Positions 7,552-42,980 of a stretch of 50,195 nt of DNA are shown here, in pieces (the first letter of the stretch is position 1; every line of letters begins with the position of its first letter). The DNA is from Candidatus Magasanikiibacteriota bacterium (GTDB lineage Bacteria > Patescibacteriota > Patescibacteriia > Magasanikbacterales > GWA2-37-8): assembly GCA_009694865.1 (NCBI GenBank), contig SICD01000003.1:1-50195 (forward strand), in the 5' to 3' direction. The position numbers and the translations under genes were made by a program. The notes under the pieces are model-generated. The model saw only the letters and a program-made list of their open reading frames with translations. It ran no database searches and had not been told where the DNA came from.

Positions 7552-8490
7552 TTAGAACTCCACCTTCCAGACGAATCCGAGCTTGAAGTCGCACACGTAC
7601 ATGCAGCTTCCGTCCGGGTGGAACCGCACGCAGCTCGGCTCACCGAAGCCGCACGCCACCGGCGGAACGAAGCGCATGTCGTACTTTTTGGTGACGCCAT
7701 CGGCATCGTGCGGCACGACCTTGACGCACTCGCCGCCGCGCTCAGCGACGTAGAGGTGGCCGTTCGTGGGGTGGGTGATCATGCCGAGGGGCTTCTTCAG
7801 GCCGTTGGCCAGAAACGGCATGTTGGGCGACCAGCTCGTGTGGTTCGTGATGTCGAAGACGGTCCCGAGACCGGCGTGGAGGTACAGCATCTTGCCCTGA
7901 TAGCCGACCGCCGTCCAGCAACCGCAGTCGCCCGCCTTGTTGCCGTTCATGCTCATCACGTACGGCATCTCGCGCAGGCCGTTGGGGAAGCCACGAACGC
8001 GGATCTTGTCCTCGCTGAAGCATCCACCCTCCTCCATGCGCACGAGTCCGTTCTCGAGCTGCACCGGTCCCGAATCCTCTCCCCCGCTGAAGGTGCAGAA
8101 CACCTCGCCCTGGTAGGAGAGCAAGCCGTACGGCCCCGGCACGCCAGCGAAGAACACGGGCGCCTCCATGGCGTCACCACCCTTCGTGATGTCCAGCACC
8201 ACGCCCCGACCCGTGTCGGAGATGAGGGTGCGGTTCCCCTGGTAGTTGGTGAGGAGCCCCGCCGGGTGGCGGAGATTCCAGGCGAACGGCTTGGCCCCGC
8301 GCATGTTGCCACCCTCGGTTACGTCCACGACGTAGCCGCCGCCGAAGGCGCTTGCGAGGAGCCGGCCATCCGGCGTCCACTCCATGTGCGTGATGCCGTG
8401 GACGCTGTGCGCGTGAATGGTCACGCGCTTGGGAGGGCGCAACGCCTCCTCATCGGGGGACAGACGAAAATCGAAGCTGAGATCGCCCAT
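7552..8490 (-). CDS. NHL/SMP-30-like beta-propeller protein, GC-rich, probable lateral acquisition
   Basis: 312 aa; repeated blades (HGITHMEWTPDGRLLASAFGGGYVVDV, HPAGLLTNYQGNRTLISDTGRGVVLDI, PLGMITHPTNGHLYVAERGG, PSCVRFHPDGSCMYVCDF); SD AGGAGG-like sequence upstream. Confidence 0.75.
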   Translation of the reverse strand: MGDLSFDFRLSPDEEALRPPKRVTIHAHSVHGITHMEWTPDGRLLASAFGGGYVVDVTEGGNMRGAKPFAWNLRHPAGLLTNYQGNRTLISDTGRGVVLDITKGGDAMEAPVFFAGVPGPYGLLSYQGEVFCTFSGGEDSGPVQLENGLVRMEEGGCFSEDKIRVRGFPNGLREMPYVMSMNGNKAGDCGCWTAVGYQGKMLYLHAGLGTVFDITNHTSWSPNMPFLANGLKKPLGMITHPTNGHLYVAERGGECVKVVPHDADGVTKKYDMRFVPPVACGFGEPSCVRFHPDGSCMYVCDFKLGFVWKVEF

Positions 8491-36132: not shown

Positions 36133-38034
36133 ATGACCGACGAAACTCCGCTGACCGCAAACATTCCACTCTCGAAAAATGAACCGCCCAAAAAAAAACG
36201 GGCTCCGGTTAAACGGCGCACGCCAACCAACACTAAAAAACCAGCCTCCGCGGAAAAATCAGTATCACGGTCCGAAGTTGACCAGACTCTAACGTCTTTA
36301 TATGCCAACAACAGTTCCGATAATGATGTCCGAACAATAAAAATTAAAAAATCTTCTTTCCTTGGCCGTCTCTTCTCACGTCTCTTGATAGCCGTAATAA
36401 TCATTGGACTAATTATGTGGGTTGGGACAAAATTAAACTATAATAATAAAATTACCAGCAAAGAATCAAGTCTAAAAGTTGAAATCCAAGGGCCCAGCGA
36501 AGTTGTTCTTGGCGCTGAAAATACCTTTACTGTTTTTTTTACCAACAACGATTCCGTTCCCCTAACCAATATTACCCTTAATATCAAATACCCCGGCGGT
36601 TTTGTTTTAATCTCCAGTTCTTTGCCCGCCACTAACGACAAACAGAACGAGTGGTCGCTAGGGACACTGGCCCCACACGCGGCGAGCTCTCTCACGCTCA
36701 TTGGAGCAGAATTTGCTCCCCTTGGACAAAATGAATCATGGCGAACGTTTATCAAATTTCACCCCAGCAACTTTAATTCCGAACTCCAAACCACCGCTAC
36801 ACTCCCCCTAGCAGTAAAAAGCTCCCCGCTCTCCGTAACTATCACCGGCCCCGACACAGCATCGGTTGGAAAGGATGTTGCCTATACATTTACCGTTAAA
36901 AATGACAGTAAAACACCATTTCTTAATCTCTCACTCGCGCCAGAATGGGGGGGGAATTTTTCTATCACTTCATCTACGCCGCCCTTGGTTAAAAATCGCT
37001 GGATGACTTCAGCCGTCCCTAAGGTCGGCATATTCAAACTGCTGGGTAAGTTCACTGATGCCGCCAACGCGACCAGCTCAATCTCCGCCCGCCTTTCCCT
37101 CACCCCAGAAGGCGCGGCGATGCCACTAACGGTTGGCGACGCCACCCTCTTAACAACCATCAATAAAAATAATATTGATTTAAACATGGCTATCAACGGC
37201 ATCATCGGCAATTTTTCGGCCGCTCCCGGAGACATTCTAAACACTACCGTCCGTCTAAAAAATAACAGCGACCATGATTTAAAAAATGGGATAATTTCCC
37301 TAGCCTTTGATGCTCCGGCCAATGACAAAAAACAAAGCCTGCTCGACTGGAACGAACTAATTGAACCTTACAACGCGAATGTCTTTGGCAAACAACTGGA
37401 GGGCGGACTGCGTCGCGGTACTATTTCCTGGGATAGTAAAAAAATTCCCGGCCTGGCTAAAATAAAACCCGGCGACGAAATTACCATTGATGTTCGCCTG
37501 CCCATAAAATCCGGAAAAAACTTTGATCTCTCGGCGCTGACTCAAAATACAATACTCGCGAGTGGCAGTTTCACCTACAACGGCACAACTGGCGCTGAGG
37601 AATCGCTTCTGACGAACAGCCCAGCCATTACGCTTAATTCTGATCTTGATTTGAGCGTGCAAAACAAAGTCGGAACAAACAGCGACGGCCAAAAACAATT
37701 TAGCGAACAATGGTTGCTTACCAACTCTTTCCATCAGCTTAAAAATATTACCCTCTCTGCCGATGTCTTTGGCGATGTGCTTTTTTCCTACGCCAGCTCA
37801 TCGGTCGGCGCCGGCACCGTCAACTATGACACCCCCAACAAAAAACTCACCTGGCATATTCCCGACATGCCCGTGAGCGTGGACACATTGGCGTTTCCTT
37901 TTTCCATAATTATAAACAAAAATAATCCCACCCAGAATACCCTCATCGCTAAAGTCCACGTCAGCGCCGAAGATACCGTCACCGGCCAAACTATCGATTT
38001 CTTTGGCGACGAAATTTCACTCCCTACTAACTAA
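36133..38034 (+). CDS. Membrane-anchored extracellular protein with Ig-like/CARDB-type repeats
   Basis: Single TM (LLIAVIIIGLIMWVG), then repeated GPSEVVLGAENTFTVFFTNNDSVPLTNITLNI / GPDTASVGKDVAYTFTVKNDSKTPFLNLSL modules. Confidence 0.75.
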   Translation: MTDETPLTANIPLSKNEPPKKKRAPVKRRTPTNTKKPASAEKSVSRSEVDQTLTSLYANNSSDNDVRTIKIKKSSFLGRLFSRLLIAVIIIGLIMWVGTKLNYNNKITSKESSLKVEIQGPSEVVLGAENTFTVFFTNNDSVPLTNITLNIKYPGGFVLISSSLPATNDKQNEWSLGTLAPHAASSLTLIGAEFAPLGQNESWRTFIKFHPSNFNSELQTTATLPLAVKSSPLSVTITGPDTASVGKDVAYTFTVKNDSKTPFLNLSLAPEWGGNFSITSSTPPLVKNRWMTSAVPKVGIFKLLGKFTDAANATSSISARLSLTPEGAAMPLTVGDATLLTTINKNNIDLNMAINGIIGNFSAAPGDILNTTVRLKNNSDHDLKNGIISLAFDAPANDKKQSLLDWNELIEPYNANVFGKQLEGGLRRGTISWDSKKIPGLAKIKPGDEITIDVRLPIKSGKNFDLSALTQNTILASGSFTYNGTTGAEESLLTNSPAITLNSDLDLSVQNKVGTNSDGQKQFSEQWLLTNSFHQLKNITLSADVFGDVLFSYASSSVGAGTVNYDTPNKKLTWHIPDMPVSVDTLAFPFSIIINKNNPTQNTLIAKVHVSAEDTVTGQTIDFFGDEISLPTN

Positions 38035-38967
38035 AAAATTCTTCACTAATTTTTCCGCCGCGGTAACAAATTCGTCTGTAATCCAATTAATTCGCTGATC
38101 TCGTTTAAACCAGGTCAGCTGTCGTTTCGCGTAACGCCGCGTTTCTGTCTTAATAATAACGATAGCGTCTTCAAGCGTACATTCTCCCCGCCAATAACTC
38201 CCTATTTGCTTATACCCAATACTACTCATGCTCGGCAAATTCCAATCATAACATTGCTTCATCAAAATTTCAGTTTCTCTTACCAAACCACGCCTTATCT
38301 GTTCGTCAACGCGCCCCTCCAAACGCGCTATTAGTTCATTCTTTTCCCAAGCTAGTCCAATCTGCAAAGTGTTAACCAGCGGAGCGGCCATCCGGCGCTG
38401 ATGGACGAATGATTCACCGCTCAAAATATTCACTTCCAAAGCCCGCGTCACTCGGCGTGGATTATTCATATCAACAAATTTAGCGGCTTCGGGGTCAAGG
38501 CTTGTTAAAAGCGCGCGCAAGTCCGAAAGCGGCTTCTCTTCCAAACTCCGGCGTAATTTTTTATTGGGCGCGATTTTTGGCATATCCAAATTATCCACCA
38601 CCGCCCAAATATATAAGCCGGTGCCCCCCACTAAAAACGGGATTTTGCCCCGCGCGGTAATATCTTGAATCGCCGCGCACGCCAAGGCTTTAAATTCCGC
38701 CACGCTCATCTCATACCCGGGATCAACCATGTCCATTCCATAATGCGGGATCCCCTCGACCACATATATTGCCCGCCCACCAACCGTTTGCCATTCCCCA
38801 GCGGGCTTAGCGGTACCAATATCCATCTTTTTAAAAATCTGGCGCGAATCCGCGGAAATAATTTCGCCATTAAATTTTCGCGCTAACGAAATGGCCAAAT
38901 CCGTCTTGCCAGAAGCCGTAGGGCCAAGTATAACGACTAATTTAGGAAGGTGATTTTTCATATACAC
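38017..38967 (-). CDS. miaA: tRNA dimethylallyltransferase
   Basis: VVILGPTASGKTDLAISLARKFNGEIISADSRQIFKKMDIGTAKP, FLVGGTGLYIWAVVDN. Confidence 0.96.
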   Translation of the reverse strand: MYMKNHLPKLVVILGPTASGKTDLAISLARKFNGEIISADSRQIFKKMDIGTAKPAGEWQTVGGRAIYVVEGIPHYGMDMVDPGYEMSVAEFKALACAAIQDITARGKIPFLVGGTGLYIWAVVDNLDMPKIAPNKKLRRSLEEKPLSDLRALLTSLDPEAAKFVDMNNPRRVTRALEVNILSGESFVHQRRMAAPLVNTLQIGLAWEKNELIARLEGRVDEQIRRGLVRETEILMKQCYDWNLPSMSSIGYKQIGSYWRGECTLEDAIVIIKTETRRYAKRQLTWFKRDQRINWITDEFVTAAEKLVKNFLVSRE

Positions 38968-39272: not shown

Positions 39273-41027
39273 TTACCGTCTTTCTCGTATTTCTGCTTTT
39301 ACCTTTTCAATAAATTCATTCTTAACCATCTTCAATTGTTCCTCGACACCACGCACGCGTATCGTCCATTCTCCGCCTTCGAGCTCCCTGTCCCCCACCA
39401 CCACAATATACGGAATTTTTTGTTTAGCCGCATTGCGCACTTTTTTACCAATAGATTCATCAGCATCATCCATCGCAGCGCGGATACCGGCCCTCTGAAA
39501 TTCCTCCAAAAGTTTTTTGGCTCCATCCACGTGCTTTTCAGAAACCGGCGCGAGCATTACCTGCACGGGTGAAAGCCAAACCGGAAACGCGCCGGCGTAG
39601 TGTTCGATAAGAAACGCCATAATGCGCTCAATCGCTCCGATGGAAGATCGATGGACTACCACCGCCCGTTTTTCCGTTCCGTCTTCGGCGTTATATTTCA
39701 AATCAAACCGCTCTGGCATGCACAGATCATACTGCACAGTAAAGGCGGTGTCTTCCTTGCCGTTCACGTTTTTCATCTGAATATCCACTTTCGGACCATA
39801 AAAGGCGGCTTCGCCAGGCGCTTCCACAAAACGACTACCCCGAGCAGTCAAATGCTTTCGGAGCAAATCTTCTGCCTTCTCCCAACCCGCGTCATTCTTG
39901 TAATATTTTTCTGAATTGGAGCGGTCGCCGAGTGAAAGCCGATACCAATACTCGGTGCCGTGTACCAAACCAAATACGCCAGCGATATATTCAATCAAAT
40001 CTAACGCCTTGCCCACTTCCGCCACGGCTTGCTCTTCCGAAGCACAAATAATGTGGGCATCAGCGAGGCAAAATGCGCGGACTCGCTGTAAACCGGAAAG
40101 CTCGCCCGATTGTTCGTAACGATACAACTGCGCCAATTCCGCAATTCTCACCGGCAATTCGCGGTAGCTGTGCGGTTTACGGAGGTAGAGCTCAAAATGA
40201 TGCGGGCAGGTCATGGGTCGGAGCATGAATTCCTCGTCATCAATTTTTATGGGCGCGTACATGGAATCTTTATAGTGCGGATAATGCCCGGATTTTTTAT
40301 ACAAATCAAGCTTGGCAATATCCGGCGTTCTCACGTGCAAATACCCGCGACGAAGTTCCTCATCAACAATAAACCGCTCCAATTCACGCCGTATCGTGGC
40401 GCCTTTTTCCGTCCACAAGGGCAACCCTTTGCCGACGCTTTCGGAAAAAGTAAATAAATCCAGCTCCTTGCCCAATTTTTTATGGTCTCGCATTTTAGCT
40501 TCTTCCAACATCGTTAAATGTTTCTGAAGTTCATCTTTAGTTGGAAAACAGGTGCCATAAATGCGCGTCAGCATTTTATTTTTCTCACTCCCGCGCCAAT
40601 ACGCTCCTGCCACGGACATGAGTTTAAAATGTTTAATTTCATCTTTAGGGTGTTCCAAATGCCCGCCTTTGCAGAGGTCGAGAAATTCACCCTGCTTGGT
40701 TTCGGTAATCATTTTCCCCTGCATCGCAAACTCATCAATCAATTCGGATTTATAAATATTCCAAGCAAAATCTTTTTTCGCCTGCGCTACCGGCACTTCT
40801 TGAATAGCAAAAGTATCCCAAGTTTTTAAAACTTCTCGCATCTTATTTTCTATTTTCTCAAAATCTTCCTCGGAGATTTTTACCTCTCCCATATCAAAAT
40901 CCTGATAAAAACCGTCCTCTATGGAAGGGCCAATGGCATTTTGCGCGCTCGGCCAAATACTTCGCACGGAGGCGGCCAAAAGATGAGCGCAGGAGTGGCG
41001 GAGATTGTTTAGGTGTTCTTGGTCCAT
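39273..41027 (-). CDS. thrS: Threonyl-tRNA synthetase lacking an N-terminal TGS domain
   Basis: LRHSCAHLLAASVRSIWP, GPSIEDGFYQDFDM, HPKDEIKHFKLMSVAGAYWRGSEKNKMLTRIYGTCF, MRPMTCPHHFELY, ELAQLYRYEQSGELSGLQRVRAFCLADAHI. Confidence 0.97.
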   Translation of the reverse strand: MDQEHLNNLRHSCAHLLAASVRSIWPSAQNAIGPSIEDGFYQDFDMGEVKISEEDFEKIENKMREVLKTWDTFAIQEVPVAQAKKDFAWNIYKSELIDEFAMQGKMITETKQGEFLDLCKGGHLEHPKDEIKHFKLMSVAGAYWRGSEKNKMLTRIYGTCFPTKDELQKHLTMLEEAKMRDHKKLGKELDLFTFSESVGKGLPLWTEKGATIRRELERFIVDEELRRGYLHVRTPDIAKLDLYKKSGHYPHYKDSMYAPIKIDDEEFMLRPMTCPHHFELYLRKPHSYRELPVRIAELAQLYRYEQSGELSGLQRVRAFCLADAHIICASEEQAVAEVGKALDLIEYIAGVFGLVHGTEYWYRLSLGDRSNSEKYYKNDAGWEKAEDLLRKHLTARGSRFVEAPGEAAFYGPKVDIQMKNVNGKEDTAFTVQYDLCMPERFDLKYNAEDGTEKRAVVVHRSSIGAIERIMAFLIEHYAGAFPVWLSPVQVMLAPVSEKHVDGAKKLLEEFQRAGIRAAMDDADESIGKKVRNAAKQKIPYIVVVGDRELEGGEWTIRVRGVEEQLKMVKNEFIEKVKAEIRERR

Positions 41028-41052: not shown

Positions 41053-41478
41053 TTAATTATATTCTTCATACTCAATTTTCATCCCGCCTCTCTCAAACTC
41101 CCCAACCAATTCATTTATAACCTGACCATAATTAAGAAACACCGGAATGGTAAAATTCGATCCTTCTTCTCTCGCTAATTCCACTATTTTATTTGCTACA
41201 GCCAAATATGATGGTGGGCCAGATTTTTCGAAAACAGAAAAACTGATTCTTTGTTCTATGGCTAAACGTAAATTTTCGTTAGTACAGTGCCCGCGCAACA
41301 ATTTAATACACTTAAGTTTTTGGGCCGGGCTGCCTTCAAATTTTTTTATAATTATTCTGTATTGCTTAATTGTTTCCGACTTATCTTTTGCGGAGTCTTC
41401 TCTGCGCTGTTTATTTGCTGCCTCCCTCAAGTACGCAAAAGGGTCTTCATTACGAGTAGAAAATGGTGGTTTGGACAT
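41053..41478 (-). CDS. Hypothetical protein, first gene after the T-box-like leader
   Basis: 141-aa ORF MSKPPFSTRNEDPFAYLREAANKQRRED... Confidence 0.65.
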   Translation of the reverse strand: MSKPPFSTRNEDPFAYLREAANKQRREDSAKDKSETIKQYRIIIKKFEGSPAQKLKCIKLLRGHCTNENLRLAIEQRISFSVFEKSGPPSYLAVANKIVELAREEGSNFTIPVFLNYGQVINELVGEFERGGMKIEYEEYN

Positions 41479-41495: not shown

Positions 41496-41682
41496 AAAAA
41501 AAACCCGATAAGCCTAAAACAGGCCGTATCGGGGTCTGTGATAAATCACGGACGGTTCCACCCGAAAGTTTCGCTCATTCACCAGCTGTCATCCCGACCG
41601 AAGTGCAGGGATCCCTCGACTTCGCTCGGGATGACAGTTGAATTTATTCACAGCGAGATTGGTAGTCTCGCATCAACCAGAC
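41496..41682 (-). promoter_or_regulatory. T-box-like riboswitch (predicted tRNA-Thr sensing) with terminator/antiterminator
   Basis: Minus strand: hairpin GCGAGA-CUACCAA-UCUCGC; T-box motif UCGGGUGGAACCGUCC; terminator CCCGAUA...UAUCGGG-UUUUUUUU; CCCGA can instead pair with UCGGG of the T-box motif; thrS is downstream. Confidence 0.78.
41588..41635. repeat. GTCAT...ATGAC palindromic element inside the T-box leader
   Basis: gtcatcccgaccgaagtgcagggatccctcgacttcgctcgggatgac. Confidence 0.85.
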
Positions 41683-41688
41683 TGAATC

Positions 41689-41717
41689 TACTATACAAAA
41701 TAATGAATTGACTGTCA
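41689..41717 (-). promoter_or_regulatory. Promoter of the T-box/thrS operon
   Basis: Minus strand TTGACA-N17-TATAGT. Confidence 0.78.
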
Positions 41718-41718
41718 A

Positions 41719-41831: not shown

Positions 41832-42980
41832 TCACTGGACATTTTTTACGATCACTTTAATCTTATCCGGCACGCTCGGCGCGCTTAACATCCACGAGGG
41901 CGAAAACTTAACATCCACCTGGGCCACATGCTCCAGCCCCAAAACATAACGTTCAATATCGGCTTTTTTCTTGCTCAAAAAGTGTTCGGCGCTTAAGGCG
42001 TCCCCATTAGCCTCCAGCGTTACCCCCACATCTTGGCGGACGCTTAATTCAGCTGTGCCCTCTTTAGCGTTAAAACTAACCACCGTTACCTGCGGCGCGC
42101 CTGCGCCGGCCGCCACAAAGCGCTCGGCTCCCGCGTCAACTTTATCGGCAATTTGTTTATTTACCAAAGCGACAAGCTCGCTCGCGGTATAGCGCACCAC
42201 CACAATCGTGCTGGTACCGCTCACGGTAAAACCGGTCACTTCTTCACCGGCTTTGTGGTCAGCCTTGGCGTGGCTATCTAATACCGTTACAATCTGTGCC
42301 ATTTGATCATCGCTGTCTTTGAGACTCTTCCGAAACGCTTCTTCAACCTTTTGTTTATAGGCAAGTTCGGCGCTCTTAATATCATCGGCGCTTAAAATGG
42401 CTAAACTGGCCACGCCGCCGCTCATTGGGGCAGTACTCTCGGCAAAAATAACCTTTTGTTTGTCGGTAACCAGACCCGGAATAGTAAATGAACTGGGGGC
42501 AATATCATAGGCGGCGCCTTTTTGGTCCGCATACACCCGCGCCGTAATCTGGCCATTGGCCGGGACAGTAACACCTTCGCTTAATCGGAACAATGCCCCG
42601 CCCGGAGTGAGGAAACGCGTCGTTTTAACCAGGGACTGTGCGGTCTTGGTTTTATTAAAAATAACCACCGCGCCAGTCGCTATTCCCGCTACAGTCTTAT
42701 TGCCGGTCGGGTGAAAATCTTCGCTCCACGGAAAAATTTGAGATTGCACACTACCCACCACACTGCTCGCGGCCACCACTTTTGCGCCCACACCAACCGC
42801 CAAGGCGATGCTCTTGATGTCATTTTTCGCCACAATGGTAATGACGGCCTTTTTGGAGGTCATAAAAATAACCAGTGCCAAAAGAATAATAGTGACAGCC
42901 AAAAAAGATAAGGCAATAATTTTATAAAACTTCACCGATGGCTCCAAAGGAGGTTGAGTAGCAAGACGATACGTTATCAT
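41832..42980 (-). CDS. Membrane-anchored hypothetical protein with a baseplate-J-like region
   Basis: N-terminal TM; TTRFLTPGGALFRLSEGVTVPANGQITARVYADQKGAAYDIAPSSFTIPGL. Confidence 0.65.
   Translation of the reverse strand: MITYRLATQPPLEPSVKFYKIIALSFLAVTIILLALVIFMTSKKAVITIVAKNDIKSIALAVGVGAKVVAASSVVGSVQSQIFPWSEDFHPTGNKTVAGIATGAVVIFNKTKTAQSLVKTTRFLTPGGALFRLSEGVTVPANGQITARVYADQKGAAYDIAPSSFTIPGLVTDKQKVIFAESTAPMSGGVASLAILSADDIKSAELAYKQKVEEAFRKSLKDSDDQMAQIVTVLDSHAKADHKAGEEVTGFTVSGTSTIVVVRYTASELVALVNKQIADKVDAGAERFVAAGAGAPQVTVVSFNAKEGTAELSVRQDVGVTLEANGDALSAEHFLSKKKADIERYVLGLEHVAQVDVKFSPSWMLSAPSVPDKIKVIVKNVQ

Follow-up and report, generated by a model that had tools for sequence, protein, structure and literature searches.

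A transcriptional T-box riboswitch candidate with an ultrashort Stem I upstream of thrS in Patescibacteria

In contig SICD01000003.1 of a Candidatus Magasanikiibacteriota bacterium (assembly GCA_009694865.1), of which we analyzed a stretch of 50,195 nt (the window), the leader of the threonyl-tRNA synthetase gene thrS very probably acts as a transcriptional T-box riboswitch with an ultrashort Stem I that controls the thrS transcript. A preliminary description of this DNA had already proposed a T-box with a minimal Stem I; the type holds, while the breadth was under-called, as this is a phylum-wide family and not a lone leader. We lean towards a wider reading, in which an as yet undescribed architectural class of transcriptional T-boxes runs through the whole phylum Patescibacteria, with the specifier in the apical loop of an ultrashort Stem I, often set together with two small hairpins in a four-way junction closed by an outer helix. 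In this reading the window's genus has pared the design to one 19-nt hairpin and an antiterminator, which may be the smallest known switch that senses tRNA and would do so through the two tRNA ends alone.

The leader elements and the genes that follow them are listed in Table 1. The promoter, the hairpin with ACC in its loop, the T-box motif with a terminator sharing CCCGA, and the order of a 141-aa open reading frame (ORF) and thrS had all been claimed before, and each was found again: the promoter has a near-consensus counterpart in 31 of 32 homologous leaders, the hairpin covaries in relatives, sequence and folding agree on the motif and the terminator, and the thrS product scores 646 bits against NCBIfam TIGR00418 (cut-off 384), with Pfam in agreement. 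The claimed outer helix GUUGA/UCAAC fared differently: it can form in the window, but L011, a leader from the same genus, lacks the 3' strand, and the outer helix that covaries in relatives is another one; GUUGA/UCAAC was therefore rejected as a conserved outer stem. Folding of a nascent-length transcript of the window leader gave Stem I a pair probability of 0.83-0.92, and the predicted energies were -11.6 kcal/mol for the antiterminator and -17.2 kcal/mol for the terminator. With a Stem I of only 6 bp and a 7-nt loop, the distal module for the tRNA elbow is absent. No Stem II, S-turn or IIA/B pseudoknot was seen by inspection, for which no dedicated motif model was run, in the window linker, which has about 15-20 nt on each side of its repeat hairpin.

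Table 1. Features of the thrS leader and downstream genes in the window.
Feature	Position	Strand	Basis
Sigma-70-type promoter TTGACA-N17-TATAGT (TTGACA 41718-41713, TATAGT 41695-41690)	41690..41718	-	Sequence and homologues
Ultrashort Stem I, GCGAGA/UCUCGC (6 bp), 7-nt loop CUACCAA	41653..41671	-	Folding and covariation
Specifier triplet ACC (Thr) in apical loop, followed by an invariant A	41661..41663	-	ACC/ACG in thrS leaders, GGC in glyS leaders; predicted to pair with anticodon GGU of tRNA-Thr
Repeat hairpin in linker between Stem I and antiterminator, 52 nt	41586..41637	-	Genome repeat count
Antiterminator: A1 UCGGG/CCCGA, 7-nt bulge UGGAACC (41560-41554), A2 GUCCGUGA/UCACAGAC	41529..41565	-	Folding and covariation
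T-box motif GGGTGGAACCG	41563-41553	-	Sequence
Intrinsic terminator CCCGAUA...UAUCGGG-U8, CCCGA common with A1	41496..41533	-	Folding and homologues
141-aa ORF between leader and thrS	41053..41478	-	ORF
thrS, threonyl-tRNA synthetase, presumed regulated gene	39273..41027	-	NCBIfam and Pfam

In the proposed mechanism, accumulating uncharged tRNA-Thr(GGU) would pair through its anticodon with the loop triplet ACC and through its free UCCA end with the UGGA bulge. The two contacts together would hold CCCGA in the antiterminator, so that RNA polymerase continues into the 141-aa ORF and thrS. Charged tRNA would be unable to make the second contact, leaving CCCGA to pair with UCGGG of the terminator and transcription to stop. 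Without an elbow module or a recognizable Stem II-like domain in the window copy, recognition would rest on the two tRNA ends. In most relatives, the loop may be displayed by a four-way junction in which the outer helix and Stem I meet two small hairpins.

The secondary structure is backed by comparison with relatives, drawn from the thrS upstream regions of 95 relatives together with named genomes. In a gap-free alignment of 32 leaders, with shuffles and slid alignments as controls, 92% of the Stem I cells pair; the shuffles reach 60% and the slid alignments no more than 56%. Double changes occur in 77 cells where 20.6 are expected. Six helices covary on a 40-leader alignment fitted to structure (A4), namely the outer helix, its inner part (weakly), Stem I, the second hairpin, A1 and A2. 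On a purely sequence-made alignment (A3), covariation holds for Stem I, A1, A2 and the outer pairs of the outer helix, the UU/AA pairs of which are invariant there and hence uninformative. RNAalifold on the sequence alignment recovered Stem I and A1 alone, so the outer helix rests on pair counting. The A1 variants in relatives include UCGGG/CCCGA, UUGGG/CCCAA, CUAGG/CCUAG and CUCGG/CCGAG. The T-box motif lies upstream of thrS in about 57 of the 82 relatives with readable upstream DNA (a tally made partly by hand), and T-box-like leaders precede thrS in several classes of the phylum. Thus two of the checks named in the preliminary description, covariation in homologous leaders and conservation of the motif upstream of related thrS genes, came out in its favor, as did its CPR-like (candidate phyla radiation) placement, the closest named thrS relatives being metagenome-assembled genomes of Parcubacteria/Paceibacterota.

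The loop triplet follows the gene, as it is ACC or ACG before thrS and GGC before glyS. The Stem I loop of relatives reads N-Y-ACC-A-R or close to it, and the triplet is ACC in all clear thrS leaders of the ultrashort type except two with ACG (L123, L127), so that it stays ACN, the point on which the preliminary description had asked for a check. GGC (Gly) occupies the apical loop in all seven ultrashort glyS leaders found among 30 relatives (L353, L359, L360, L364, L368, L372, L376), and likewise in L008, also upstream of a glyS, making eight glyS leaders of the same design. On the tRNA side, the UGGA bulge is complementary to the discriminator base U73, which had been predicted from it and which is present both in the tRNA-Thr(GGU) of the window genome (3' end CAUCGGC-U-CCA) and in 52 of 52 tRNA-Thr genes read in relatives. 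All 29 of the relatives' tRNA-Thr genes that have anticodon GGU share the anticodon loop AUGGUAA, and the loop-loop duplex UACCA/UGGUA has a predicted energy of -5.6 kcal/mol. A second ultrashort form, GCGAUGA...GAGC, was seen in L216 and in glyS leaders and is absent from the window leader and L011; we take it to resemble the K-turn base of canonical Stem I. Some of the eight glyS leaders sit on such a K-turn-like base.

The 3' strand of A1 doubles as the 5' strand of the terminator in 32 of 32 leaders (at least three of the five A1 3' nucleotides pair), and the promoter stands at a near-fixed place in the 31 leaders that have it, with the end of the -10 element 21-34 nt before the loop. Given this near-fixed distance, transcripts are expected to start at the outer helix or slightly ahead of it. 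Together, the shared terminator strand and the promoter position point to transcriptional control. It could be argued that the leader mainly governs ribosome access in the manner of actinobacterial ultrashort T-boxes, given that an ultrashort Stem I with an apical specifier has been described mainly for translational T-boxes (PMC7583486), but we consider this very unlikely: a strong hairpin with U8 after it shares sequence with the antiterminator strand, homologues have kept hairpins of this sort, and the start codons lie downstream of the terminator.

A covariance model (R1) was made from 15 relatives, with the window sequence excluded. In the 50-kb window the leader is the sole R1 match at E <= 10 (37.9 bits, E 2.4e-7), and in the 0.99-Mb genome it is the sole match at E <= 0.01 (E 4.7e-6). 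R1 matched in 51 of the 287 genomes of a phylum sample. A clear thrS match was present at 24 of the 30 R1 loci read, not all 24 of which are clear leaders, and others precede genes that resemble glyS, valS, proS and ileS, names that were read from N-termini. A constitutive terminator or leader-peptide attenuator that merely resembles a T-box is hardly credible in view of the model E-value, the covariation and the agreement of both codon with gene and bulge with U73; a Thr-rich leader peptide was not noticed by eye in the leader. The point in favor of mere resemblance is that the 11-mer GGGTGGAACCG, with a chance expectation of 0.01 occurrences per window, occurs once more in the window by chance. 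This second copy, at 7616-7626 on the plus strand, sits in a coding ORF without leader features and was rejected as a coding coincidence, so the motif alone is no proof of a T-box.

Several observations weigh against the T-box reading. RF00230 of Rfam release 15 gives no match to the window leader even at E <= 10, so that, of the combined search with RF00230 and a custom model suggested earlier, only the custom part succeeded. In about 25 relatives, several close thrS homologues among them, no such leader could be detected before thrS. The in silico fold of the full leader is a structure other than the isolated Stem I, and the outer junction helix and the hairpins hp2 and hp3, kept by most relatives, are missing in the window copy. 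The 5' end of most relatives' leaders folds into an outer helix that varies in sequence (e.g., CAGA/UCUG, UUAGAC/GUCUAA or GCUUUAAAU/GUUUAAAGC), the order being the outer helix (N3-9), a two-purine bulge and UUG...CUAA, with Stem I and two small hairpins inside. The window leader and its genus-mate L011 consist of Stem I, linker and antiterminator only, and the window's genus has lost the outer helix.

Without the outer helix, hp2 and hp3, the window copy could be weakened. Taken further, the ancestral switch would have lost its junction domain, gained a repeat and become a plain constitutive attenuator, as might be read from the absence of these three elements in both the window leader and L011, from the repeat insertion in the window linker, and from the weak R1 score (37.9 bits, where the sequences used to build the model reach 83-106). 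Such decay is improbable, however, since the promoter, Stem I, its loop, the T-box bulge, A1, A2 and the terminator are all intact, L011 keeps the minimal design with a different A2 loop, and L013, which also lacks the outer helix, retains a 7-bp Stem I. A functional, pared-down T-box remains our preferred reading of the window leader.

The failure at the RF00230 gathering cut-off (93 bits) extends beyond the window, as homologous leaders score 22-52 bits or go undetected. Across the 287 sampled genomes of the phylum, RF00230 matches 96 at E <= 0.01, and the cut-off is passed in only 9 of these, so longer T-boxes of Patescibacteria may already be in databases. At gathering and permissive thresholds alike, Rfam showed no T-box anywhere in the window; the permissive matches to mir-M7 and RT-5, which coincide with the repeat hairpin and with the 5' portion of the leader, were rejected.

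More than 95% of T-boxes were in Firmicutes in a 2008 survey (PMC2494555). The window leader shares with the canonical class I T-boxes of RF00230 (Firmicutes thrS, glyQS) a specifier codon, a UGGNACC bulge in a two-helix antiterminator, a mutually exclusive terminator and an aminoacyl-tRNA synthetase target, but it lacks the long Stem I, the internal specifier loop and the elbow module, and has no recognizable Stem II or IIA/B; its relatives carry two short hairpins in place of Stem II. A 2020 review states that T-boxes acting on transcription generally depend on a long Stem I that carries the elbow-binding module, and that an ultrashort Stem I is found mostly among translational T-boxes (PMC7583486), such as those of actinobacterial ileS (Sherwood et al., 2015, as cited in PMC7583486). 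These class II ultrashort or intermediate T-boxes likewise have the specifier in the apical loop of a short Stem I and no elbow module. By contrast, the leaders described here have a terminator rather than a Shine-Dalgarno switch, serve Thr or Gly rather than Ile, belong to another phylum, and, in the relatives, close a four-way junction with an outer helix at the place taken by Stem II in actinobacterial class II. A third comparison is with Patescibacteria thrS leaders with an internal specifier loop (L016, L019, L036), which share the gene, the GGGTGGAACCG antiterminator, the terminator and ACC, but differ in a longer Stem I with a ..AUGGUACCACU.. internal loop. By its anatomy, the window leader is thus a putative T-box in the general sense, outside the RF00230 cut-off and outside both class I and class II architecture.

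The pared-down design recurs across the phylum, and a family of this kind has apparently not been described there before; in the open-licence literature we found no paper joining T-box riboswitches with the candidate phyla radiation, Patescibacteria or Parcubacteria. The elbow-binding module has apparently been removed repeatedly in transcriptional leaders of one gene, sometimes along with all else that separates Stem I from the antiterminator. With such a natural deletion series, one can test how little an RNA needs in order to sense tRNA during transcription. The leaders also suggest that a large phylum of mostly uncultured bacteria uses amino-acid-responsive control, which is apparently undescribed there and is missed by current RNA annotation.

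In a tree of 97 thrS proteins, with leader types assigned partly by hand, ultrashort and internal-loop leaders are interleaved with at least 14 changes, from which the two forms appear to have been interchanged repeatedly, by loss, gain or transfer. Given this interleaving, dating the origin of the ultrashort Stem I from the thrS tree was dropped.

The linker element (41637-41586) is a palindromic copy of a genome repeat with other copies at several places, and its hairpin is absent from L011. The 26-base repeat unit has seven genome matches at <=3 mismatches, two of them the element's own arms, compared with none for a control pattern. Another repeat-like hairpin lies just upstream of the leader at about 41765-41720, the hairpins being of the GTCATCCCGAG..GGGATC and CATTGCGAGGA..GGCAATCC types. 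Repeat-like inserts of about 40-75 nt also occur in the antiterminator A2 loop of L011, L013, L017, L041, L060 and L114, as if this loop tolerates mobile repeats, and L145:2589-2907 has two adjoining model matches before thrS, which could be two T-boxes in tandem or a single one interrupted by an insertion.

The 141-aa ORF has no Pfam or NCBIfam match and no convincing relative in 57 genomes. In some relatives (L050, L059, L060, L062, L041), a gene starting ..GPRVTLRP.., GNAT acetyltransferase-like by look, stands between leader and thrS. Upstream of thrS, a 382-aa gene without a known family (41832-42980) is conserved in many relatives. This gene and the other flanking gene (38017-38967) are 76% and 73% identical to those of genome G001, compared with only 65% for thrS (39273-41027), and the thrS tree separates the window from G001; possibly, the leader was retained while thrS was exchanged at the same locus. 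In Kaiserbacteria-type relatives (L119-L147, e.g., L134 and L126), the threonyl-tRNA synthetase matches only from about residue 145-180 on and apparently lacks the N-terminal editing domain, and T-box leaders lie directly upstream in several of them.
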